Assembly: GCA_015039365.1 (NCBI GenBank)
Contig: WION01000007.1
Coordinates: forward strand, 868,001-932,000
Direction of reading: 5' to 3'
Length of the DNA: 64,000 nucleotides
Origin: Amanita rubescens
Taxonomy: Eukaryota > Basidiomycota > Agaricomycetes > Agaricales > Amanitaceae
The notes under the pieces were generated by a model that saw only the letters and a program-made list of their open reading frames with translations, was not told where the DNA came from and ran no database searches. The first letter of the stretch is position 1, and the number at the start of each line of letters is the position of its first letter. The position numbers and the translations under genes are program-made. Shown here in pieces: positions 5,974 through 45,129 of the stretch.

Positions 5974-8900
5974 TCACGAATAAAATCGTGAAGTGGGGAC
6001 AGTAGCAGCAGAAGCAGCGTTCGTCGCCGGTGGACCCAACACTGGATACACGGGCTCGTCTGCCCCCGTCAGCGCAGCGACAGACAACAACCGTCGTCTC
6101 GACGATAAGACCGATTGCGGCGGCGGCGGCGGCTGTAACGAAGGTGGCGACGGCGAGCGCAGAAGAGAATTATGTTGATGCGGATGATCAACCAACATTG
6201 CCAAAGACGTCGGGCCCAACCCACTACCGCCAGACGACCTCAAATCCGACGTTGGCACATCCCTAACGGCACCACCACCACCACCACCACCACCACCACC
6301 ACCAGCGCTCCGCCACGTAGAAGAACGCGCATGATCCTCCAGCGCCCCGCTAATCCTAACCGAAGCATGATCCTCCTCAACCGAAGACGTCGATCCCAAC
6401 AACTGCCCAAACAACCTCCTCGTGCCCTGCCACGTTGTCGGAAACTGTCTCAACAGCATCGACTTCCGATTCGCGTCTTCCGAGGCGTTGTACCGCCAAG
6501 AATCGGGCTGCGTCATCCACCCCTCGGAAGGAATCGCGTACATCGGACGTTGGTTCTCCGCGAGCGTCGGACCCGTGATAGCTTCGCGTCCTTTATCCTC
6601 CTCCTCCTCCTCCTCAGCTTGTTGCTGTGCCCGCATGAGAGCAACAGTAGACGGACCCAAACGTCGTCTAGAAATAGCCACGGGCGTGGCAAACTCCGCG
6701 CCAGAACAAGTCTGTTTCGAAGCACCGGCGACAACGTCGAACTCTGCAAGATGGCTCATGTAATACTGACTAACTTGAGCCGTCGTCTGGGCTGGGGGTA
6801 ACTCACCCGCCACCGCTCATAGAAGAACCAAAACACACCTTGTTCGACATCGACGCTGCTATCCGCTTAAAATCATCGCCGTGCTGAGCCAACAAGCTCA
6901 AAAACAGACCTATAATCAATCAATCGAACGGGCGTATAAGCCTCGCAAGAAATCGGCAAAGAATCGACCTCCCACTTTTATCCGCTTCGCTCCATTGGGC
7001 GGCAGCAGAGGCGGTAGACGACGATAACGACCCGTGGCTCCTCCTCCTCGAACCCATCGGCGGTAGATCTGGAATTTCCTGGATCTTCTCTCCCTCTCCC
7101 GTATCTCCCATGGATGGTGGCGCAGAAGACATGGACGGCGTTCCTTGCGGCGTTGAAGGCTCCTCAACAACAATACTGGCAGACTTGATAGTCTTGCGAG
7201 ATCGTTTTGCACGTTTGGTAGGCCTAGGGTCGGGATCCTGTTCAAATTATCAGGATACCAGTCGACATCATACCAGTTCGCGGGAAACTTACAACATTAT
7301 CCTCCTCCCCCTCTTTAGCCCCATTTTGAGCAGAAGACTGTGTCTGTCCCCGCCGCCGTCGATTACTGTTCCGCAACGCCGTTGTCGGCGTCGGAGCTGG
7401 TGCTGCCTCCGGCGGTTCAGGGGTGGGCGTTGAGCCAGGAGTCCCCTCCTGCTGGACAGCCGCCCTTCTCATCTTCTTCCCTCCATCCACCTGCACGGCC
7501 ACCTTTCTTCCCTTAGACACCCGACTAGGGACCGTCAACAAATCAACACCACCGCTAACCTCAGCATCGTGCTGCTGAATATCAGCAATAATCCCCTTCT
7601 TCTTGCCCGTCCCCCTCCTTCTCCGCTTGTTGGGCGCATACTGAGAGACAACCTTGCGAAAGTCGATCATCTTCTTCTTGTGCAAGTAGTAAAACGCAAC
7701 ACACTGAGCCTGGGTTTTGTTGGGCAAGTAACTCGCAATGATGCCAAACTGCTTCGGATACTCTGCAAATTTGTCGAGGAAGACCTTCTTTTCTTCTTCC
7801 GTCCAATCGTGGATACCGGTGTGCGGACCGTAGTACTCTGCAGGGTTCTCAACTCGGTGGTTGGTGTCATCGTACACGTAGTCCACTTTGCCGTGTGTGA
7901 CGGAAATCATGTCAGGTATCGTAGCGAGGTTCCGGAGCGAGAGGTGGGCAGGGTCCGTCGCCTCGTCATTGCCAAGACTAGCTATTATCTGCTCCATCTC
8001 CAGATCTGAGCGGACGGCGTCACCAAGGGAAGCGGCGGATCTCCGAGTCGTCCTTCCAGCAGGCTGTACCGTCTCTGTTTCCGAAACGAGCGCGCGAGAC
8101 TGCTCGTCGAGAAGAGCACAGTGTTGTATCCATTTCTCCTGCAGAACTTGATACTCTTTCTTTAGTCTCTGGATTTTGGCAAGCCTCGTAGCTTCACGCT
8201 CCTTGAACTGTTGCTCCAGAGCGCACTTGGCGCCCGCAAATGCCAACATGCGCTCTTGGTGTCGTTGGCCGTCACAAATCTCGGTTACGAGCTCTTGCAG
8301 AGACGTAGACCGGCGAGTTTCCACACACTGGACAAGTGACCGGTTGGTTAGAAGCACTGGACCGACGCGTTCTTCTCGAGTTTGCCGATCGCGTAGTAGA
8401 CGCGTCATAACCACTATCCGCAGAGCCTCTTTTGTGGATTTTGCTTCGGAAGGAGAAGGAATGTCCTGAGGTGTGATTAGAATCTCTTTTGTTTGCTCTT
8501 CCTTTGAAGGTCCTGTTGAATCTGGGATAATAGGTGTAGTTGCCTCATTTGGTAATGTCGGAGGTGGAGGTGATGAGATTGGCGGAACGGCAGAAACGGG
8601 TAAAGTCTCTTCCATCTCTTTGATTTCCGGTGGGCTTTCAACAAGAATAGGTGGCGAGAGGACTCTCTTGAAGGGTGTTGAATCTGACAAGACTTCCGTT
8701 TCAGCAATATTATCTTGCTCCGGAGTCGCGGAAGCATCCCCTTGAAAGTCTTTAACGATGGCCTCCACTAGCTCGACAGATTCTTCAGAAGGAGCGACAG
8801 GTGTTATTATAGTTGGAGTTTCATTATGCGACAAGGGAGTTAATGAAGGTGGTGGCACGGCGTTTTGAACAGTCGGCGGTAACGATGGTGTCTCTAGTTC

Positions 8901-10342
8901 TGACATGACGACGTCGGAAGGCTCTTGAGCTACGGCAGGTGGTGGCTTTTCTATCTCGGTCTCGACGAGAGTTGAACATGATGTGAATTGTGCTGCCGAG
9001 GGTCTAGGTTCTTGTATTGGTACACATAGTTCTTCCAATAATGGATAATCAAAGGCGGGTAAAAGAGTGGACTTTTGCTTTGGAGGAGGTTCGGCAACCG
9101 GTGGCACAGAAGATTCTACTTGGTGGTTCAAGTGAATCATCTCTTGAAGAGGCTCGGAAGGTTTGGTTGGTTTAGTGTGATCAACCTGAACGGCGACAGG
9201 CGGAGGGGGGGCCGGAGTTTTGGGATTCTCTTGTACAGAAATACGCGAAGAGGCAATTGAAGAACGTGACAATGATCGTGAGACATTTGCGCGTTGATTG
9301 TGGTCTCGCGTCGAATGACTACGGCTACGACTGCGACTACGACTGCGACTGCGACTGGAAGAGGTACGCCGTCGACGATGATAACTTCTACTTCGAGTTC
9401 GAGTTCGTGACCGGGTTCGTGACCGCCGACGACCACGACTGTGACTGCGACTTCGTGAACGGCTCCTGCGATTCCGACTCCGAGAGCGGTTTCTACGATC
9501 ACGACTACGACTGCGACTACGACTACGAGTTCGAGTCCAGGAGCGGCTCCGACTGCGGCTTCTGCTTCTGCTCCGGCTTCTACTCGAGCTCTTGGTTGTA
9601 GGGCGGTAGTGGCGGCTGCGGGGAGACGGAGAGCGAGAGCGAGAGATGGATCTTGACCGCCGTCGTCGTTCATAACGTGATCTACCATTTAGGAGGGTGA
9701 GAGGATCCCTGGGAGAGTAGTGCCTTGAAGAATCGTAGCTTGGTCTGTAAGAGTCATAGCCTGGAGGCCTGTAGGTGTCTCCGTTGAATTTACGACGAGA
9801 TCTACATAGAGGAGCAAATTTGAGTGGAAAATGTAGCTTTGTAGAAAGCACGTACGGATCTGCCCAGGAGTCAACACGGGGGCGCTCAGGGAGAGGGTGG
9901 TCGGACATTCGAGAGGCGAGCATAATGTCTGGTCTGCGAGGCTTTGGTCTGTCTCGAGGGGGTGATGCTGGGCGGGGGCGACGAACAGGGCTGTTGTTCA
10001 TCGGGGAAGCTCTCATAGGATCTAAGCTGCGGTAACGGTCTGAAGGAGAGGGAGAACGAGAGTCACGGCGGTTGTGATCAGGACGGTAAGAGTTTGGACG
10101 ATAGACGTTCGGGTAGTCGTCTCTTGAAAAAACGATAGAACGATTGGGTACGTATCGATCTGGAGGAACATAACGACGAGAAGCGGGTGAGGGGCTCCGT
10201 CGGCGGGATGATCTCTGTGAACAAGAGAGTTAGAAATTGACTGTATTCGTGCAAGCAAACAAATTACATCTGTAGATGGTGATTGTGGTGGGCGACGAGA
10301 GGAGGAAGGAACAGGGGGCAGCTCAGCTGTGGCGGGTGCCAT
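5974..10342 (-). CDS. SNT1: SNT1/NCoR-type corepressor with two SANT domains and RS tract
   Basis: Exons 10342-10268, 10214-9856, 9801-7293, 7237-6976, 6909-6839 and 6786-5974 give 1362 aa. Layout: Pro/Ser leader, basic Arg-Ser repeat tract (about residues 205-312), a long Pro/Glu-rich region, SANT1 near residue 808 (HDWTEEEKKVFLDKFAEYPK, then AQCVAFYYLHKKK), SANT2 near 1065 (QWSEADKSLFLSLLAQHGDD, then TTAQVSQYYMSHL), a poly-Glu run and an 11-Gly run encoded by a CCA/CAC repeat near 6280. The paired SANT arrangement is that of Snt1/NCoR/SMRT, scaffolds of the Set3-type histone deacetylase complex. SANT2 is split by two introns, which explains why the raw frame breaks. The 54-bp intron 9802-9855 is a multiple of three and could be retained. 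The RS tract is unusual for this family. Confidence 0.87.
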
Positions 10343-11412: not shown

Positions 11413-14400
11413 ATGGCAGCTACAACTGCCAGTGCACCTTCTTTGAGTAGGCTACTATGTGACTTGACATTGCTAATCCTTGACTGACACATAGTATCAG
11501 ATGCAGATGAGACACATGTTCAAATGCTCAGGGAGCGCTATCTATGCCCACACTTTCGCATCCTTGTCATTGGGAGGGCTAATGCAGGCAAGACAACCAT
11601 CCTTGAGAAGGTCTGTGGTGTATCAAAGGGGACAAAGCCCATTATACATGACAAGGATGGTAAGTTGGTCTGAGTTTTGTGCTTCCTTGACTGTTGAGTT
11701 TTTTGCAGGTAATCAGCTTGAACAGTCTGTGTTTCATTTGATGCCATCACTTGAGGTGGGTTGGATAATGATGTCATGTATGGATGTACCCATTCACATG
11801 TAATGATAACAGAGAGGCTTGCATGATATTGAGCATCAAATTACATACCCTAGAAGTAACTTTATCTTCCATGACTCTCAGGGTTTTGAATCTGGTTCAA
11901 CTGAGGAATTGGAGATTGTTTGGAAGTTCATTGCAAAGAAGTCTGCAGAAACTGAGCTGAAAAACCAGCTGCATGCAATTTGGTATATTGATTTATCCTT
12001 TTACATTACTGGCTGATCTGGCTTCCTCTAGGTACTGTATACCTATGGATAGCCCTCGTCCCATTCTACCTGCAGAACTTGAATTCTTTAATCAAGGGAC
12101 AGGCAGAGGCAAGTCCTAGTGAATTTGTATCTCTTCTTGTAACTTGTTGATTTTGGAGAATTGTTTACCCTTAACTATTGTTACCTCTTTCCATTTGCCA
12201 ACTTGCCACAAAATCTACTAGTACTGACTAGGAAATATTTTTTTACAGTTCCTTTGGTGGCTATATTCACCAAATTTGATGGTCAAATAGCCAGTGAATT
12301 TGTCAACTTGACTGAAGCAATGGATGAAGATAAATGGGAGAGAGCCAGGAAAGTTGCTGAAATCACTTTTCAGAAAGTTTATCTTCCTAAGGTTTTGGAA
12401 GCCAAATATCCTCCCAGGACATATGTGCAATTGGAAGGTGAGAATGATGAGGATTTCTTCCTGAAAAATTGGAGTAGTGTTGCTTCATAGACATGGATTT
12501 ACCAGAGAAGAATTGTGCTGAATTAACTCAGCAAACTGCTGATGCAATAGATGATTACAGCATACATCAGCTGTTTGTTTCAACACAGATGAATAATCTT
12601 GACCTTTGTGTCAAATCTGCAATTCAGTGAGGGTCACATTCAAAATGTCAATTACATCATTGACATTGTTTAGACATGTTCTGAAATATGATTATTGGAC
12701 ATGGGATGATGTCATTTCCATAGTTTTGTCAAAATTTCCACATTTCTGGGTATGCATTTTGTCAAACTGCACATCAGCATAGGGAAATATGAATTGCAAT
12801 AGGTGGACAGGGTGGTAGGTGACCTTCATATGGAATAATAAATACTTGCAAAAAGTTCATCAGGAGGTAAGTAACACTCCAATGCCTTCATATGAAAACA
12901 AGATTAGTCATGCTTCAGATGGTCAATGAACAACTGAGTGAACCACAAGTTAGTTGTCATGGTCATGATATTCTTGGTGGTAAGATCTGATGAGTCATGA
13001 TACTGATACCAGTGGGTAAGAAACATTGAACTAGTAGTATAGACTCATCTGATATATTGTCTCATGACAACAGTTTGTGAGTAATGGTTCCTTTGTCATT
13101 AGTAATCTTGTCCAATAATCTATAGGAAGTGAGTGGCTTAGTAACTTTTGGTGAATGATCCTATGATGGTGCTTTATGTACATATACTATAATAGAAAGT
13201 GAGTCAATCTATCATTGTAAGTAGACTTGCCAATCCAGCCTCTTGTGGACAGACAGTGAGTAATACTTATGTATACAACATTGTTTCACACCACATCTGA
13301 CCTGCTTAAAGAAAGTAAGCAACATTGGTGTTTGTGCAGCTTATCAGGTGACATAACTCAATGAACATCAGAAAGTTGGTGGCATACTATCATCTGAAAG
13401 AGAATACATTTCACTGGATTAATAACAGGAAGTAAGTGACATTTCCTCTGTCTGCTTATAGACATTGTGTACATCTTGTCCAAAAATGACAGACAGTAAA
13501 TATTTCTCCTTTTCAAAGCCTCTTCACAACCCAAGCAATTGCAAAACAAACAGGATGTATGTGATCCTTTTATGAGGTGAATTCATCAAATGAAGTACTA
13601 TGGCAAAAGAAAGTCAGTGGTATTGTTTTTTTTTCAAACTCATCATGCTAATTCATTCTAACAGGAAGTGAGTGATGCTGGCCACTCTGCTACAGGCAAT
13701 TTGGATACATTCTTTTGTTCTACAGATTGTGAGCAACATTGCAAGTTTGTGAAAAGCAGTAAATCACATCTTTTCCTATACATAGGAGGTTAGCAGCATA
13801 TCATGCCAATTTAGTGGTTCAAAAGATGACCTTATCAAAATTTTGCCTATGGCCAATAGCATGTGAGTAGCATTGCAAACATTTCTTTTCTACATATGTA
13901 TTTTTCCCCATGGCTGACAGGATGTGAACAACATTGAAGTTTTTTGTGGAAGGCAGTCTCATCACATGACTAACAGGGAGTGAGAGTGACATTGCACCTT
14001 TGGTGAAAGGCAGTCTCATGATTATTTTTTCCTATGACCAACAGCGAGTGAGTGACATTGCACATTTTGTGGAAGGCAGTCTCATCACATGTTTTGATAT
14101 GATGAACAGGGAGTGAGTGACATTGCACATTTTTGTGAAAGGCAGTCTCATCACATCTTTTCCTATGACCAACAGTTGGTGAGTGATATCATTGCATATT
14201 TTGTGAAAGGCAGTCTTTTCCTGTAACCAACAGCAAGTGAGTGACATGGCACAATTTGTGAAAGGCAGTCTCATCACATCTTTTCCCATGACCAACAGCG
14301 AGTGAGTGAGGTTGCACATTTTGTGAAAGGCAGTCTCATTACATCTTTTCCTATGACCAACAGCAGGTGAATAACATTTTCATATTTAAGGCAGTCTCAT

Positions 14401-16053
14401 CACATCATTTTTTGCTATGACCAACAGGGAGTGAGTGACATTGCACCTTTTGTGAAAGGCAATCTCATCCCATCTGTTCCTCTGTCCAACAGCGAGTGAG
14501 TGAGATTCAAGCACATTTTGTGAAAGGCAGTCTCATTACATCTTTTCCTACTATGATCAACAGTTTGTGAGTGAGATTGCACATTTTGTGAAACTTTGGC
14601 AATGGTCTCATCACATCTTTTCCTATGACCAACAGGTTGTGAGTGACATTGTGCATTTTGTGAATTGTAGTCTCATCAAATCTTGTCTTATAACCAACAG
14701 GTTGTGAGTGACATTGCACATTTTCTGAATGACAGTCTCATCACTTCTTTTCCTATGACCAACAGCCTGTGAGTGGCATTGCACATTTTGTGAAAGGCAG
14801 TCTCATCACATAATTTCCTACATACATATGACCAACAGCTAGTGAGTGAGATTGCACATTTTGTGAAAGGCAGTCTCATCACATCTCTTCCTATGACCAA
14901 CAGCGAGTGAGTGACACATTTTGTGAAAGGCAGTCTTACATATTTTTCCATGGCCAACAGTTTGTGAGTGACATTGTACATTTTGTGAGAGGCAGTCTCA
15001 TGACTCTCATCACATCTTTTCCTATTATATGACCAACAACAGCAAGTGAGTGACATTGTGCATTTTGTGAAAGGTCTCATCACATATTTCCCTATGACCA
15101 ACAGTTTGTGAGTGATATTACACATTTGTGAGAGGCAGTCTCATCACTTCTTTTCCTATTGAACAGGTTGTGAGTGACATTGCACATATTGTGAAAGGCA
15201 GTCTCATTACATCTTTCCCTACAACCTACAGCAAGTGAGTGACAGTGCAAATTTTGTGAAAGGCAGTCTCATCACATCCTTTCCCATGAGCAGCAGTCTG
15301 TGAGTGACATTGTAAATTTCCTGACCTGCATTCTCAGCATACCTCAATTCATGAATGTTTGATATGTCCATTGCATCCTATGTATATCAGAAAGTGAGTG
15401 TGTTGCCATATGTTTTCCATGTTTTCCTTTTACATTATTCTCATCATAGATTGTGAGCTTTCATTTCCACTGACTCATTCCCACCTCATGTCTCTCCTTT
15501 CCCTGATTTCCAGGTGAGTGATATTGGTTCATAGAGGCATTGATTTTTACATCAGTTTGCTTGCTAGTTTGTAGGTCTGATGACCCACATTGGACATTTT
15601 ACTATGTGTACTATCTCATACATAACTAGCATGAACTTTTCTCAATGTTTGGAGACAAGCAATGGATCAAGTTTGCAGTCAAGGTTTTTTCTTTTTCTTT
15701 TTTGGGTAGTACACAACTGATGCCATTGCAACAAGCCTACTGATTGCCAGGTCTTAGTTTGTAAATTATTCCTTTTCATTTACTTTAAATACTTAAACTT
15801 TCAAGCAATTATTGTCATTGCCAAGCTATCCTTTTGGATCAATAAACCATTTCTGCCATCAGTCATAGAAGCCTTGGATCAATACAAGCAAAAAGGTTAT
15901 GTCCAGAAGCTGAAGACTGGTATTACTCTGGACTTGATGCACTCTGGTCATCAAGATTTTGTCACATTACTCTATAGGCAGGTGACTCACATTGATGGTA
16001 TGTCACACTTTGTCTAGTCATGGACTACTTATGAGGAGTTTTTGGCAGAGTGA
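11413..16053 (+). CDS. P-loop GTPase (fungal G-domain protein) carrying a triplet-exon array
   Basis: Exons supported by frame: 11413-11446, 11495-11659, 11709-11755, 11813-11982, 12032-12108, 12249-12437, 12491-12626, 12674-12749 and probably 12803-12814. GTPase motifs: Walker A GRANAGKTT, Asp-Xaa-Xaa-Gly-like HDSQGFESGS, and FTKFDG for base recognition; then the conserved QLFVSTQMNNLDLCVKSAI and WTWDDVISIVLSKFPHFW. Intron 12109-12248 is GC-AG. The array of about 41 triplets follows (separate entry). Beyond it, coding sequence resumes: FGDKQWIKFAVKYTTDAIA (near 15650-15755), then 15806-15981 with FLPSVIEALDQYKQKGYVQK, and a last exon 16018-16053 ending TYEEFLAE. The phase between the first two C-terminal exons does not close by my reading, so that part is tentative. 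The biochemical role is unknown. Confidence 0.75.
12815..15574 (+). repeat. array of ~41 intron-like units separated by exactly 3 nt
   Basis: Units of 49-91 bp run from a donor (mostly GTGAGTG) to an acceptor (mostly ATGACCAACAG), with three bases between each acceptor and the next donor. Triplets and first positions: GAG 12864, TTA 12950, TGG 13013, TTT 13074, GAA 13126, AAA 13196, ACA 13253, AAA 13312, AAA 13372, GAA 13429, ACA 13493, GAT 13554, AAA 13610, GAA 13665, ATT 13726, GAG 13786, CAT 13860, GAT 13921, GGA 13977, CGA 14045, GGA 14110, TTG 14176, CAA 14234, CGA 14299, CAG 14364, GGA 14428, CGA 14493, TTT 14564, GTT 14636, GTT 14701, CCT 14766, CTA 14839, CGA 14904, TTT 14961, CAA 15043, TTT 15105, GTT 15167, CAA 15232, TCT 15297, AAA 15391, ATT 15450. 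None is a stop. Units from about 13924 to 15300 are highly alike; outer units are diverged. The last junction (15513/15514) is AG directly followed by GT. Confidence 0.9.
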
Positions 16054-16654: not shown

Positions 16655-18711
16655 TTACCAAACCCCTGCACAAGCCCCTGCTCTGATGTTCTGCTCAAGT
16701 TTTTTAAGCATGTGAAGGTCATGAGCTTTATCCATTATTGCCAATGGCCCAACACCACTTGCCCACTCAATCACATCACCAATGATGAATGGGTATCGGT
16801 CCTCCCCATGAACACCACACCAATCATAGTCAACCAATTTCATATCATCACCATTGACAAGGATATTAGGTGTTCGCAAATCACCAAAGACCAGGTTCTT
16901 GGCATGCAGAAGTTCTATTGCTTTTTTCACTGATGTGATAATGGTATCCAGACAACTCCAGGGTGGACATGGTGATGAATTCAGGAGTCTGCTTAATGTT
17001 CTACCTTTTGCATCGTCCATGACGATCATAAGCAAGCCTCCATAACGGGGACCTTCTGTTCCATCATAGATGAGCTCAGGTGCAAAACCATGGTCAGCAA
17101 GGAGCCGATGAGCATGAGCATTGTAGGTAGGGGCAAACTTCACAACCACCTCTTTTCCATCTCCCTGCTTGGCTAGATAGGTGGCCTTTGATTCATTTGG
17201 TGATATTGGTTCTTTATAATCAATATCCACAGTAGCACCACTCAGGTGCTTGTAGGATCGAACAAAGGTGAAAAAACGAGAAGATGTCGGCTGACACAGG
17301 AGGCTTTCATAATACTGGCGAAGATCTCGAAGGGCTCTTCGGAGAGCATAAAATAGTCGGAGAGGCGTATTGACACTAGAGGGATCAAGGACATGTGGTT
17401 GAAGGTAAATGGAGCCAGTAAGGTCCTGAACTATGACCTTCTGCACGTAGACGGCACCAAATACAGTGATCCATGGGCCCGCGATTTCCACGAGGAAGCA
17501 TGGAGAGCAAGAGATCAGTCGAACAGGTTCATGCTGTACAGGTACATGTGAGTTTGCAATTCCAAGAGAGTAAATACGAGCACACCTCAGGTAAAGAGCA
17601 TGTCCTCGCATAGGATTGCTGTACCCGTGTTTTTCCGTCAATGCCGGACTCCAACTCCAACTCAAAGATAGCCGATAGAGCATCATAACCTGCAGGTATC
17701 CTAGCCACGACCCTGGCACCCGGTTCCGTTCCGTCCGAATTTATGGTCCAAGGCACGCTGACGCCAAGAAGGCGCGATAAGGCGGGTAGGACAGCTTCCG
17801 CTCGACCGGTTGGAGGACCCTGGTCGACCGGCCCACTCCTTTCTAGGTCGTGGAACTGTGATGAAGCTTTCATGAAGCTGAAAGCATCATCTATGCTCGG
17901 CATTGAGTCGTCGCCATCTCCTGGTGAAACGGTTCTATACCCGGGCGTTGTTTCTTTGAAGTATTCCAAAAAACGGTCGAACACAGGATGATAGAGGCCT
18001 ACAGGAGGCCCTGACCTGTCCCACGGCCTGCCGTTGAGGATTTCTGCGTAGTCCTGCTGTGACCGCATTAATCTGGCGTCCTTAGAAACAGCAGAAGGGT
18101 TTAACCCGGTGCGGTATCGCTTTGATTGCGCTTCTTGCACTGTGAAAGAGGTTGGATTCTGTGACAATTCAAAGGAGATATGACAAACAAGCAGAGAGGT
18201 CAATTCCTCCGTCGTCTACTCGCTGTCGTTTTCCTGATTCCGATGGTTCTGTGACGGAGATGAGATGACATAGCCAATGCAAACGACATGTTCACCAATG
18301 GCCGGAGCCTTTATAATTATGTGGATGTATTCGTCGGCAGGCTTCACTGAAAGGATACTGGCGAGGCGCTTCGTGGGCCCTAATTTGTCCGCAAATTGCG
18401 AAAGACCTCCCAGGGACACGATACGTTCAGCCAGAGTGTCGTCTGGCTCAGTAGGGATAAAGTCCTTGGGCTGAGAAAAGCAATGTCATTTCACACCGTA
18501 AGTCATCAATAGCACTTACCTTCCACAATTCCAAAGTGTGAGGATCAACATCCGCTAATATACTTTTTTGTCGCTCGCATTGTATGGCTTTCTTCAAGTT
18601 GCTGACCTTAATATTGCGCCCCACGGTAACTATAAAGACGGCGTATTCGCCTTCGATAACACAATTAAGGTCCCAATCATCGTCTTGTCTCGGTGTACTA
18701 GGCTCTACCAT
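16655..18711 (-). CDS. Crinkler-header protein with kinase-like C-terminal domain
   Basis: Exons 18711-18520, 18470-18296, 18248-18189, 18139-17586 and 17533-16655 make 619 aa in one frame; introns are 47-52 bp GT-AG. The first exon has the ubiquitin-like Crinkler (CRN) header: DWDLNCVIEG, then HTLELWK and, after the intron, PKDFIPTEPDDTLAERI. The last exon is a divergent protein-kinase fold with a candidate lysine in KEVVVKFA, a catalytic-loop-like LVFGDLRTPNILV and KLVDYDWCG in place of the usual DFG. CRN-header proteins were described as host-targeted effectors in oomycetes and chytrids and also occur in free-living eukaryotes with NTPase or kinase payloads. Whether this one is secreted, defensive or selfish cannot be told; no signal peptide is evident. 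The exact start and the intron 18140-18188 are inferences. Confidence 0.8.
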
Positions 18712-41633: not shown

Positions 41634-44600
41634 ATGGACAACCCACAACAGGCTACAAACCAATTTTTTCCTGGGACACACAACATCTTTATGAAAGATG
41701 CTCAATTTACAGAGGTTATTTTTAAGTGTTGTCCACTGGTAGCACAACAATAACCCTAACCCATAGATAACTAACAACACCAACAACATCAGCCTTAACG
41801 TCACCTCTCCCGAGACCACTTTACCTCCTCTAGCACCCCTGAAACATTCTAGTACATTCTTCACTGGCAGGGATAAATACCTGCAAAAATTGAAGGACTA
41901 TTTTAGTTCCCAAGTGGAAGATCAAAGGAAGTCATTCCTTTTGCATGGTATGGGAGGTATTGGAAAAACTCAGATTTGCTTGAAATTCATTGAACAAAAT
42001 CCTGATTTGTGAGTACTGTATATCAGCCATTTGAGATTGAAATAAACAACTTGTCTCAGGTTTTCTGAGATATTTTGGCTGCATGCCTCTTCAGAGGCTA
42101 TTATTGAAGTTGGACTAATACATATAGCTCAGGCTAACAGTGCCCCAAAGGAGGCAACAAAGTCTTCTCAATCTGCTCTCATGTGGATTGCTCAGAGGTC
42201 TACTGGATGGCTCATGGTATATGATAGTGCAGATGGGCATTATTCAGTGGTTGAAAAGTACCTTCCACCAGGGAATGGAGGAAATATCTTGATTACAAGT
42301 AGGAATGTGGGATTGAAGAGGCTGGCATTGGACTCAGTGAATGTTGTTGACATGGGAAATGATGAGGCTGTTCAGTTGCTGTTGAAGTCAGCCATGCTTG
42401 ATGGCACATCTGACCATATATCAAGTATGGCCCAAAATGTGATATCAGAATTGGGGGGAATACCACTTGCTGTTGACCAAGCAGGAGCATACATGCAAAA
42501 CTGTGGCTGTAGCATTGGTGGCTATCTTGAGCTGTTCAAAAAACATAGGCATCAATTAATGTCAAGGAAAGAATTCAAGGGAGCATCTGGTTATGGAACA
42601 TCTACATATGGAACATGGGACATCACAATTGAACAGATTGAGGGCATGGCCACAAAAGGAACAGGGCAAGAGGCTCAAGCAGCACAATGTGCAATTAGGT
42701 TACTAAGAATATTTGCCTTCTTAAACCATGAGAATATACCTGAGGAATTATTCAAAAATGCAGCAGAAAATTATATAAACAGAGATCTTGTACAGGAGGC
42801 ACAGTTCAATTTACCATTGTCAGTGACACTGTTAGATCATCAGATATTGCTTTTAAATAAAGGAGAGTGGGACAGAATGCAGTTCCTAGATGGGATCAAA
42901 ATTCTGCTGTCATTTTCTTTGATCAAGGCCATTGATCATCTATACTCCATGCATCCATTAGTAAATGAATGGAGCAGACACATCATCTCCAAGACAGAGA
43001 TCAGTGATCAATATCACAGAGTAAGAGCACTGTTATCCTGTTCAATAGCTCTTGACTGGCAAATTGATAACTACACATTCTGCAAGGTTCTTGCACCACA
43101 TATTAGGGCAAATACTTCATGTGGATTAGATTTACAGTTGGAAAGCAGGTACTATGATGATGAATATACCAGATTTGCACTTGTATTTCATCACATTGGT
43201 AGCTGGAATGAGCAAGAGAAATTGTTACTTGTTGGATTTGAACAAAGGAAGACAAATATTGGACTAGATGACCCAGCCACTCTCTGCACCATGCACAGTC
43301 TGGCATCAACATACTGGGATCAGGGAAGGTGGGATGAGGCAGAAAAGCTCCAGGTGGAGGTGGTGAATGCAAGAAAAGCAAAGCTTGGGTCAGACCATCC
43401 AGATACTCTTGACACCATGCGCAGTCTGGCAACAACATACTTGAATCAGGGAAGGTGGGATGAGGCAGAGAAACTCCAGGTGGAGGTGATGAATGCAATA
43501 AACATAAAGCTTGGATCAGACCATCCAAATACTCTCCACACCATGCACAGCCTGGCATCAACATACTGGAATCAGGGAAGGTGGGATGAGGCAGAAAAGC
43601 TGGAGGTGGAGGTGATGAATGCAAGAAAAGCAAAGCTTGGATCAGACCATCCAGATACTCTTAACACCATGCACAATCTGGCATCCACATACCGGAATCA
43701 GGGAAGGTGGGATGAGGCAGAAAAGCTGGAGGTGGAGGTGATGAATGCAAGAAAAGCAAAGCTTGGATCAGACCATCCAGATACTCTTAACACCATGCAC
43801 AATCTGGCATCCACATACTGGAATCAGGGAAAGTGGGATGAGGCAGAGAAGCTCCAGGTGGAGGTGATGAATGCAAGAAACACAAAGCTTGGATCAGACC
43901 ATCCAGATATTCTCCACATTATGCACAATCTGGCATCAACATACTGGGATCAGGGAAAGTGGGATGAGGCAGAAAAGCTCCAGGTGGAGGTGATGGATGC
44001 AAGAAAAGCAAAGCTTGGATCAGACCATCCAGATACTCTGAATGCCATGCACAATCTGGCATCAACATACTGGGATCAGGGAAAGTGGGATGAGGCAGAG
44101 AAGCTCCAGGTGGAGGTGATGAATGCAAGAAAAGCAAAGCTTGGATCAGACCATCCAGATACTCTTAACACCATGCACAATCTGGCATCAACATACTGGG
44201 ATCAGGGAAAGTGGGATGAGGCAGAGAAGCTCCAGGTGGAGGTGATGAATGCAAGAAATGCAAAGCTTGGATCAGACCATCCAGGTACTCTTAACACCAT
44301 GCACAATCTAGGATCAACATACTGGGATCAGGGAAAGTGGGATGAGGCAGAGAAGCTCCAGGTGGAGGTGATGAATGCAAGAAAAGCAAAGCTTGGATCC
44401 GACCATCCAGATACTCTCCACACCATGCACAATCTGGCATCCACATACTGGAATCAGGGAAGGTGGGATGAGGCAGAAAAGCTGGAGGTGGAGGTGATGA
44501 ATGCAAGAAAAGCAAAGCTTGGATCAGACCATCCAGATACTCTTAACACCATGCACAATCTGGCATCCACATACCGGAATCAGGGAAGGTGGGATGAGGC

Positions 44601-45129
44601 AGAAAAGCTGGAGGTGGAGGTGATGAATGCAAGAAAAGCAAAGCTTGGATCAGACCATCCAGATACTCTTAACACCATGCACAATCTGGCATCCACATAC
44701 TGGAATCAGGGAAAGTGGGATGAGGCAGAGAAGCTCCAGGTGGAGGTGATGAATGCAAGAAAAGCAAAGCTTGGATCAGACCATCCAGGTACTCTCCACA
44801 TTATGCACAATCTGGCATCAACATACTTGGATCAGGGAAAGTGGGATGAGGCGGAGAAGCTGGAGGTGGAGGTGATGGATGCAAGAAAAGCAAAGCTTGG
44901 ATCAGACCATCCAGATACTCTTCACACCATGCACAATCTGGCATTAACATTCTGGAATCAGGGAAGGTGGGATGAGGCAGAGAAGCTGGAGGTGGAGGCG
45001 ATGGATGCAAGAAAAGCAAAGCTTGGGTCAGACCATCCAGATACTCTCCATACCGTGCACAATCTAGCAGCAACATACTTGAATCAGGGAAGGTGGGATG
45101 AGGCAGAGAAGCTCCAGGTGGAGGTGTAG
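41634..45129 (+). CDS. NLR: NB-ARC ATPase with C-terminal TPR array
   Basis: Exons 41634-41714, 41767-42008, 42060-45129; 1130 aa, uninterrupted. The short N-terminus (QFFPGTHNIFMKDAQFTE) resembles the leader of many basidiomycete NLRs. NB-ARC: P-loop LHGMGGIGKTQICLKF, Walker-B-like GWLMVYDSAD, NILITSRNVGLKRLALDS and the GxP-type LGGIPLAVDQAGAYM. From about residue 370 follow 14 full 42-aa kinesin-light-chain-type TPRs (consensus MHNLASTYWNQGKWDEAEKL) and a partial one ending EAEKLQVEV. Fungal NLRs with highly similar repeats are linked to non-self recognition and programmed cell death; the exact role here is inference. The whole gene is CpG-poor. A truncated copy lies at 51.0-51.8 kb. Confidence 0.9.
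43285..45129 (+). repeat. 126-bp tandem repeat coding for TPR units (14.5 copies)
   Basis: Fourteen 126-bp units plus a partial one, differing at few positions. Units 3-6 and 10-13 share the same order of variants (YWNQGRW/LEVEV, YRNQGRW, YWNQGKW, HIMHNLASTY), so a block of about seven units (about 880 bp) was itself duplicated. Unit length being a multiple of three keeps the frame through any unequal exchange. Confidence 0.9.

Follow-up and report, generated by a model that had tools for sequence, protein, structure and literature searches.

The closest described counterparts of the arrangement considered here are the micro-exon genes of flatworms (schistosomes and tapeworms), whose runs of tiny exons, mostly of a length divisible by three, are hard for gene finders to recognise. 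In two reports (PMC7653826, PMC10526429), the micro-exons are given as 3-81 or 6-81 bp long, 15 bp being the commonest length, with introns of 0.1-5 kb and with variation generated by exon skipping. Ultra-small exons are also documented singly: a 1-nt exon in Arabidopsis APC11, whose neighbouring introns were proposed to be recognised by intron definition and removed one after the other (PMC4674806), a 1-nt exon in Fusarium CYP621A (PMC12940212), a pair of 3-nt exons in the Dactylellina gene lipS (PMC5639578) and a 3-bp exon reported in Drosophila homothorax (PMC7392893). A further related phenomenon (PMC4457414) is that of the fungal introner-like elements, near-identical introns which multiply in one genome and are newly gained in different genes. 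Here we describe, in a stretch of 64,000 nucleotides from the mushroom Amanita rubescens (assembly GCA_015039365.1, contig WION01000007.1, positions 868,001 to 932,000 of the forward strand; hereafter the window, with coordinates counted from its first base), a gene for a GTPase-like protein which is likely to contain a long chain of exons, predicted from the sequence, of a single codon each.

The predicted window gene, with about 51 exons including 38 consecutive exons of 3 nt, counts as a micro-exon gene under the operational definition (which includes at least 7 exons) given in PMC7653826. The Amanita arrays differ from the flatworm genes in that their chains comprise up to 85 three-base units with introns of 42-129 nt (over the 21 loci compared below), in that the introns are base-identical in bulk at 11 loci, and in that the variation lies in the genome itself; we regard them as an extreme variant of the micro-exon gene. 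The isolated ultra-small exons indicate that inclusion of exons of 1-3 nt is possible, but they are single cases in ordinary genes, whereas Amanita has chains of dozens. With the introner-like elements the arrays have intron multiplication in common, whereas the Amanita copies are in tandem, one codon apart and, at the sites compared, confined to one gene family. Recursive splicing likewise removes an intron step by step and exposes the next donor, as is proposed here, except that in Amanita three coding bases would be retained per step. Among open-licence PMC papers we found no chains of single-codon exons, none in Amanita, and likewise no identical introns around diverse codons. Should splicing proceed as predicted, about 25 to 85 successive introns would be separated by three exon bases. 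This goes far beyond the isolated exons of 1, 3 and 6 nt that we found in print, and would make these genes a natural system in which to study minimal exons, intron definition and the order of splicing.

In the window, 39 single-codon exon-like units, all flanked by AG on the left and GT on the right, lie between the G-domain exons and the C-terminal exons. An unbroken chain of single triplets extends from TGG at 13013 to ATT ending at 15452 (38 units), and a GAG at 12864-12866 makes 39. An earlier note on this DNA had proposed about 41 intron-like units one triplet apart over 12815-15574; the chain is real and its span from 13013 to 15452 stands, but the single-codon units number 39 (38 unbroken), the stretch 12815-13012 includes a 30-nt exon (12919-12948), and a triplet TTT at 15568-15570 is doubtful. 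Each intron-like unit has its own donor and its own acceptor, and the lengths, for which 49-91 bp had been given, in fact range over 49-108 nt, with 115 nt for the doubtful last one. The upstream exons, spliced in a hand model, form one open frame in which a P-loop can be recognised by eye, and they lead into the array in phase 0; the exon at 15630-15683 can join it in phase 0 as well. The NCBI protein P0003 (277 aa, Amanita rubescens) is the G-domain part of the window gene and matches the hand model. It stops at the end of the exon 12491-12626, short of the array; if the splicing is as predicted, models of other genes in this large mushroom family may likewise be truncated at their arrays.

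The regularity resides in the spacing. When GT..AG units in the window are chained at a spacer of three, the longest run has 38-40 members, depending on the parser, and the other spacers between 0 and 12 give chains of only 2-3, apart from spacer 7, whose chain of 11 is a by-product of the doubled GTG in the donor GTGAGTG. Dinucleotide shuffles of the window (n=200) reach at most 5, and the initial 1,150 bases of the array alone hold a chain of 14 against a shuffle maximum of 4, so that the claim of an acceptor-to-donor spacer fixed at three is borne out. Tandem Repeats Finder reports a repeat of about 65 bp at 13966-15319 (20.5 copies, 73% matches), the part of the array (plus strand) with recognisably related intron units; the earlier units are not recognised as repeats.

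The same arrangement recurs across the genome (75.7 Mb searched, the window lying on contig C650). A search with the array DNA gave 160 matches, with at least 40 loci among the matches listed, the window included, and the window was compared with 20 further loci retrieved in this way. At these 21 loci the spacer-3 chains have 25 to 85 steps, and other spacers 2-6, spacer 7 (11-72) again being an artefact of register; the chain starts with TGG at 17 of the 21, the parsed chain beginning later at L031, L033, L034 and L037. With a strict flank pattern of 14 bases, AACAG-NNN-GTGAGTGAC, 2010 sites with a spacer of three were found genome-wide against 15, 8 and 21 for spacers of two, four and six, reversed-pattern controls giving 1, 0, 0 and 2 for spacers 3, 2, 4 and 6; haplotype copies and homogenised units are contained in these counts, and the sites are therefore not independent events. 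Most sites with spacers of two or four (18 of 23) lie on contigs C13 and C749. When spacers were instead counted by length, 686 of 710 had three bases and one had none. Two distant paralogs, L041 and L044, which are absent among the matches listed in the array DNA search, have diverged introns and have nevertheless kept the spacer of three in chains of 19 and 20, where shuffles of the window and both paralogs give chains of at most 5.

Read as codons, the strict sites contain a T-purine-purine triplet 21 times in 2010, namely 20 TGG and a single stop, a TGA on the disturbed contig C537, whereas about 95 stops would be predicted if the three positions, with the composition they have in 442 variable-region triplets from 14 loci, varied independently. 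The 19 two-codon units that could be read are all free of stops. The chain parser itself reports 25 stops among 1056 triplets over the 21 arrays, and 6 among 629 in the 14-locus count. Sixteen of the 25 fall in C749 and C13, two arrays in which the parser is at odds with the spacer length, and the remaining nine comprise three instances of GAA followed by a doubled donor, three two-codon units (CAAGCA once, GAAGCA twice) and three in C537, one of which is a plain TGA. The initial 14 triplets spell WFEQGKKETDEIKY or a variant of it at all 13 representative loci (an extra AGA unit being omitted at 3 of them), the single apparent stop in this comparison, in L026, consisting of GAA and then a doubled donor. 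The intron lengths at the same positions are unequal in 55% of the locus pairs.

The composition of the triplets is itself skewed. The third base is A or T in 94% of the 442 variable-region triplets, which come from 14 of the 21 arrays, and among the 1056 triplets arginine is CGA in 158 of 166 cases and glycine is always GGA. Triplets containing AG or GT internally are uncommon, GTT apart, perhaps reflecting avoidance of new splice sites. A GTAAG donor accompanies NAT triplets in 6 of 38 cases against 2 of 393 (14 loci), an association from which we conclude nothing because several of the cases copy one another.

The conserved peptide occurs without interruption in two JGI proteins, P0001 and P0012, the short contigs of which (1446 and 1903 nt) are devoid of G-domain introns and are for this reason most likely derived from RNA. 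P0001 aligns with the window protein over HVLK..WVDR..NEQLSE..WFEKGKKESDREIEYD (38/56 identical, spanning 15 chain codons) and P0012 aligns with L024 through ..MANKQLSEAQWFEHGKKDTDK (37/50 identical, spanning 11); both alignments cross positions which in A. rubescens are split one codon per exon. The pattern WF[ED]xGKK[ED] has zero uninterrupted matches in the A. rubescens genome.

At other, recently expanded loci of the family the introns and the codons they enclose have parted company, a feature more unexpected than the chain itself and beyond what the earlier note could show. Between 20 and 41 base-identical introns, with 5-10 different triplets between them, are found at 11 of the 21 loci, the window not being among these, and at 12 of 20 listed loci 17-41 introns equal one 62-nt consensus, the other 8 having 0-3 and the window having too few countable units. 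A 42-nt core of this intron has 435 exact copies in the genome against 0 for the control, and those of the 435 sites that were compared lie near exons of the GTPase-like gene family. Pairs of identical introns within a locus follow the same triplet in 11-29% of cases at the 11 loci, and in 56% of 18 pairs in C749; fewer than 10 base-identical pairs occur at each of the 9 loci left, among which is the window. Of five near-identical array pairs that were aligned, L028/L029 differ at 4/159 triplet bases and 4/3241 intron bases and L029/L031 at 5/147 and 6/3022, that is, pooled, at 9/306 triplet and 10/6263 intron bases, a per-base difference about 18 times higher in the codons. Some of the codon changes between paired arrays involve two or three bases (ATC to CGA, GAA to CGA, GCA to CTA), as expected of unit exchange, and others a single one (GGA to CGA, CTT to CTA). 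L027 has exactly one extra 65-bp unit, an intron plus CGA, in comparison with L026. If the splicing is as predicted, identical introns around different codons separate two clocks that are usually coupled, and the arrays offer a direct route to how a protein segment evolves one codon at a time.

We consider it very probable that the triplets of the window are one-codon exons, spliced together in frame so as to link the G domain of a GTPase-like protein to its C-terminal part. This run of single-codon exons, already proposed in the earlier note, fits best with the dominance of spacer three, the single stop in 2010 triplets, the shared peptide, the JGI proteins and the diverged paralogs. The introns would be removed singly by intron definition, because splice factors bound at an acceptor only three bases from a donor would get in each other's way, and every step would add one codon to the growing exon and expose the next donor. 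The first 14 codons would form a conserved segment and the remainder a variable linker. Intron-plus-codon units would be duplicated and traded, both inside an array and among arrays, with homogenisation of their introns, so that the linker could lengthen, shorten and change codon by codon, and selection for frame together with the removal of stops would hold the exon at three bases (or six).

Several observations weigh against this account. The phase-0 reading that had been claimed for both flanks holds for the upstream exons and can hold for 15630-15683, but hand splicing of the window gave no in-frame junction from that exon to the last exon (15806 on). P0001 and P0012 cover the initial 15 and 11 chain codons of the array, their tails beyond this point do not align to the arrays compared, and neither shows the C-terminal exon. 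The G domain of P0012 is incomplete at its start, and near the lone GAG codon P0001 has one residue fewer. The source gene of these proteins could carry one continuous exon at the position of the array. A protein search aimed at the array start (2 candidates) scored none, and a search combining the array start and the C-terminus (335 candidates) returned P0012 alone. In 13 close loci the base-level likeness of the conserved triplets (0.914) is near that of the introns (0.909), so that constraint is visible in length, frame and stops and not in base identity. Having fewer than 10 base-identical intron pairs, the window is itself no showing of intron identity; three of the aligned pairs (L025/L026, L026/L027 and L039/L040) have zero triplet substitutions, with 0, 1 and 0 in the introns, and neighbouring equal triplets are modestly raised, above the permutation mean at 10 of 12 loci and below it at 2, with p <0.05 at 2. 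When donors are defined more strictly, L041 and L044 retain chains of 12 and 11 (shuffle maxima 3 and 4), a length of 11 being reached in L044 by the artefactual spacer 7 as well. Finally, three of the 21 arrays (C749, C13 and C537) are disturbed by spacers other than three, a stop or a lost acceptor.

In these disturbed arrays the changes of length are concentrated at the codon position: in C749 (locus L032) 17 odd spacers fall within 135 spacer bases, where the introns have 17 indels over 2790 bases, and C13 (L022) has 3 odd spacers in 135 bases against 0 indels in 2790. The spacers of L032 and L022 have 0-4 bases and the introns are mostly intact; these arrays may be decayed copies or may bear the trace of junction formation. 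At the remaining 18 loci the counted units include no frame-breaking unit, one 4-base spacer in L031 excepted. Since spacers of 0-4 bases cluster at the codon position and the adjoining introns are largely intact, new junctions may be written with untemplated bases. A bolder proposal, which we hold tentatively and with the balance somewhat against it, is that the arrays act as a codon-cassette engine, the near-identical introns serving as recombination handles by which codons would be added, removed or swapped among the linkers of dozens of immunity-like GTPases. The repertoire of linkers would be widened by exon skipping as well: because each exon is a single codon in frame, any combination of them could be skipped without loss of frame, and one gene could yield many linkers.

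Could the array instead be a minisatellite within one large intron, its 65-bp repeat including AG and GT by chance and the whole being removed in one piece or left untranscribed? The 20.5 copies reported by Tandem Repeats Finder, the near-identity of units at many loci and the NCBI model P0003, which stops before the array, all agree with such a repeat, yet a plain minisatellite would not hold the spacer at three, as had been argued, and the early window units, L041 and L044 keep this spacer despite diverged introns. One stop in 2010 triplets, and the recurrence of the triplet-spelled peptide in JGI proteins whose contigs are without G-domain introns, likewise speak against a repeat without coding function, which we reject on the spacer of the diverged arrays and on the stops, and consider highly improbable. 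Recursive (ratchet) splicing, in which the three-base units would be mere stepping stones absent from the mRNA, might be suggested by the likeness of AG-NNN-GT to a ratchet point with a tiny gap, and sequential removal would be mechanically plausible. Classical ratchet points have AG directly abutting GT, with nothing retained, whereas the counted spacers include a single one of zero length and 686 of 710 of three bases; frame, stop avoidance and a conserved peptide, all of them observed, would moreover be unneeded by stepping stones. Ratchet splicing without retention is rejected on these grounds and appears to us scarcely credible.

Two further explanations accept the single-codon exons but differ on their origin or their present state. 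The 62-nt intron could be an introner-like mobile element inserted repeatedly between the codons of a once continuous linker exon. Base-identical introns within and between loci whose codons differ, the 435 copies of the 42-nt core, the weak run signal of neighbouring equal codons and the existence of such elements in fungi (PMC4457414) fit this origin; it would, however, need an insertion at nearly every phase-0 codon boundary (two-codon units number 21 against 2010), L026 and L027 differ cleanly by one intron-plus-codon unit, and, as weak evidence, the lack of an uninterrupted match to WF[ED]xGKK[ED] points the same way. We judge an introner-like origin unlikely, if serious enough to be kept in view. 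That the arrays are genuine by ancestry and now mostly dead or unexpressed might be read from the frame-breaking spacers, stop or lost acceptor of C749, C13 and C537 and from the great size of the gene family (150 scored matches in a search with the C-terminal part), but decay of this extent is difficult to combine with 18 of 21 loci in good order save for the one spacer in L031, with a single stop genome-wide and with the existence of transcript-like proteins in relatives, and we hold it very unlikely. Two window units and the consensus proved unremarkable when folded as RNA (z 0.87, 1.09 and 0.09), so an interpretation as structural RNA was abandoned.

Under the favoured reading of one-codon exons, the features of the window gene, all on the plus strand, are as follows. 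The G domain is encoded, in frame in the hand splice model, by exons at 11413-11446, 11495-11659, 11709-11755, 11813-11982, 12032-12108, 12249-12437, 12491-12626 and 12674-12749; a GC donor (GCAAGT, from 12109) at the end of the exon 12032-12108 makes the following intron a GC-AG intron in this model. A predicted 12-nt exon at 12803-12814 (VDRV; AG/GT flanks and frame) has its counterpart in the VDRA of P0001, and the predicted lone GAG codon (E) at 12864-12866, with AG/GT flanks and in frame, corresponds to one residue in P0012. In L024 the counterpart of this GAG is GTG, likewise a lone codon ahead of the 30-nt exon (by eye). That 30-nt exon, at 12919-12948, would encode MVNEQLSEPQ, where P0012 has MANKQLSEAQ and P0001 VTNEQLSETK.

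The conserved block (13013-13862) consists of 14 putative exons of one codon each (W F E K T K K E T D E I E H), with starts at 13013, 13074, 13126, 13196, 13253, 13312, 13372, 13429, 13493, 13554, 13665, 13726, 13786 and 13860, in a codon order common to the 13 representative loci and with the peptide found in P0001 and P0012. The variable linker (13921-15299) would follow with 22 such exons (D G R G L Q R Q G R F V V P L R F Q F V Q S), with starts at 13921, 13977, 14045, 14110, 14176, 14234, 14299, 14364, 14428, 14493, 14564, 14636, 14701, 14766, 14839, 14904, 14961, 15043, 15105, 15167, 15232 and 15297. The closing codons K (15391-15393) and I (15450-15452), AAA ATT, end the chain also at L022, L024, L032, L033, L034 and L036. 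The doubtful TTT at 15568-15570 has AG/GT flanks only and lies within an enlarged last intron (15453-15629), the equivalent of which in L024 is about 74 nt long and has no such triplet (by eye). The candidate post-array exon, HELFSMFGDKQWIKFAVK, at 15630-15683, has AG/GT flanks and frame and resembles PELFSVFGEHS.. of the relative P0036 (by eye), and the C-terminal exon, IIVIAKLSFWINKPFLPSVIEALDQYKQKGYVQ.., at 15806-16000 with an approximate end, is matched by the P0036 tail in tblastn (window 15805-15993, 44% identity).

By eye, the relatives P0036, P0044 and P0046 share one layout, in which the G domain is followed by a WFDKADEAANFERNYY-like segment, then by a low-complexity linker and finally by the C-terminal part. 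In the AlphaFold model of P0036, confidence is high for most of the G domain and for the C-terminal helices, and the segment 295-357 has a pLDDT below 50 at nearly every residue; it probably corresponds to the variable linker and is modelled as disordered segments are. A Foldseek search of this model against the PDB has the immunity-related and dynamin-like GTPases IIGP1, GM4951, mitofusin and BDLP among its best matches, proteins with a G domain plus helices as in the P0036 model, though at low TM-scores (for the 50 matches listed, E from 6e-6, TM-scores on the query 0.21-0.36, identity 9-17%). Pfam found no family at cut-off in three proteins scanned and no match in two short exons; P0003 reached 20.5 bits with MMR_HSR1 (cut-off 21.9) and 13.2 with Dynamin_N (cut-off 27), and several homologs carry a precomputed PF01926.

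Adjoining the array gene, at 7242-10016 on the minus strand, is an open frame of 924 aa with a long stretch of RS dipeptides and a SANT-like segment (by eye), and past the gene, on the opposite strand, lies a kinase-like open frame (16655-17719, minus; Pkinase 29 bits, a little under the Pfam cut-off of 31.7). Farther along the window, at 42181-45129 on the plus strand, a 982-aa open frame has an NB-ARC-like tail (by eye) and, after it, about 14 TPR-like repeats of 42 aa that are almost alike, a 126-bp tandem with 92% matches; it is likely an NLR-like gene with a fast repeat turnover of its own.

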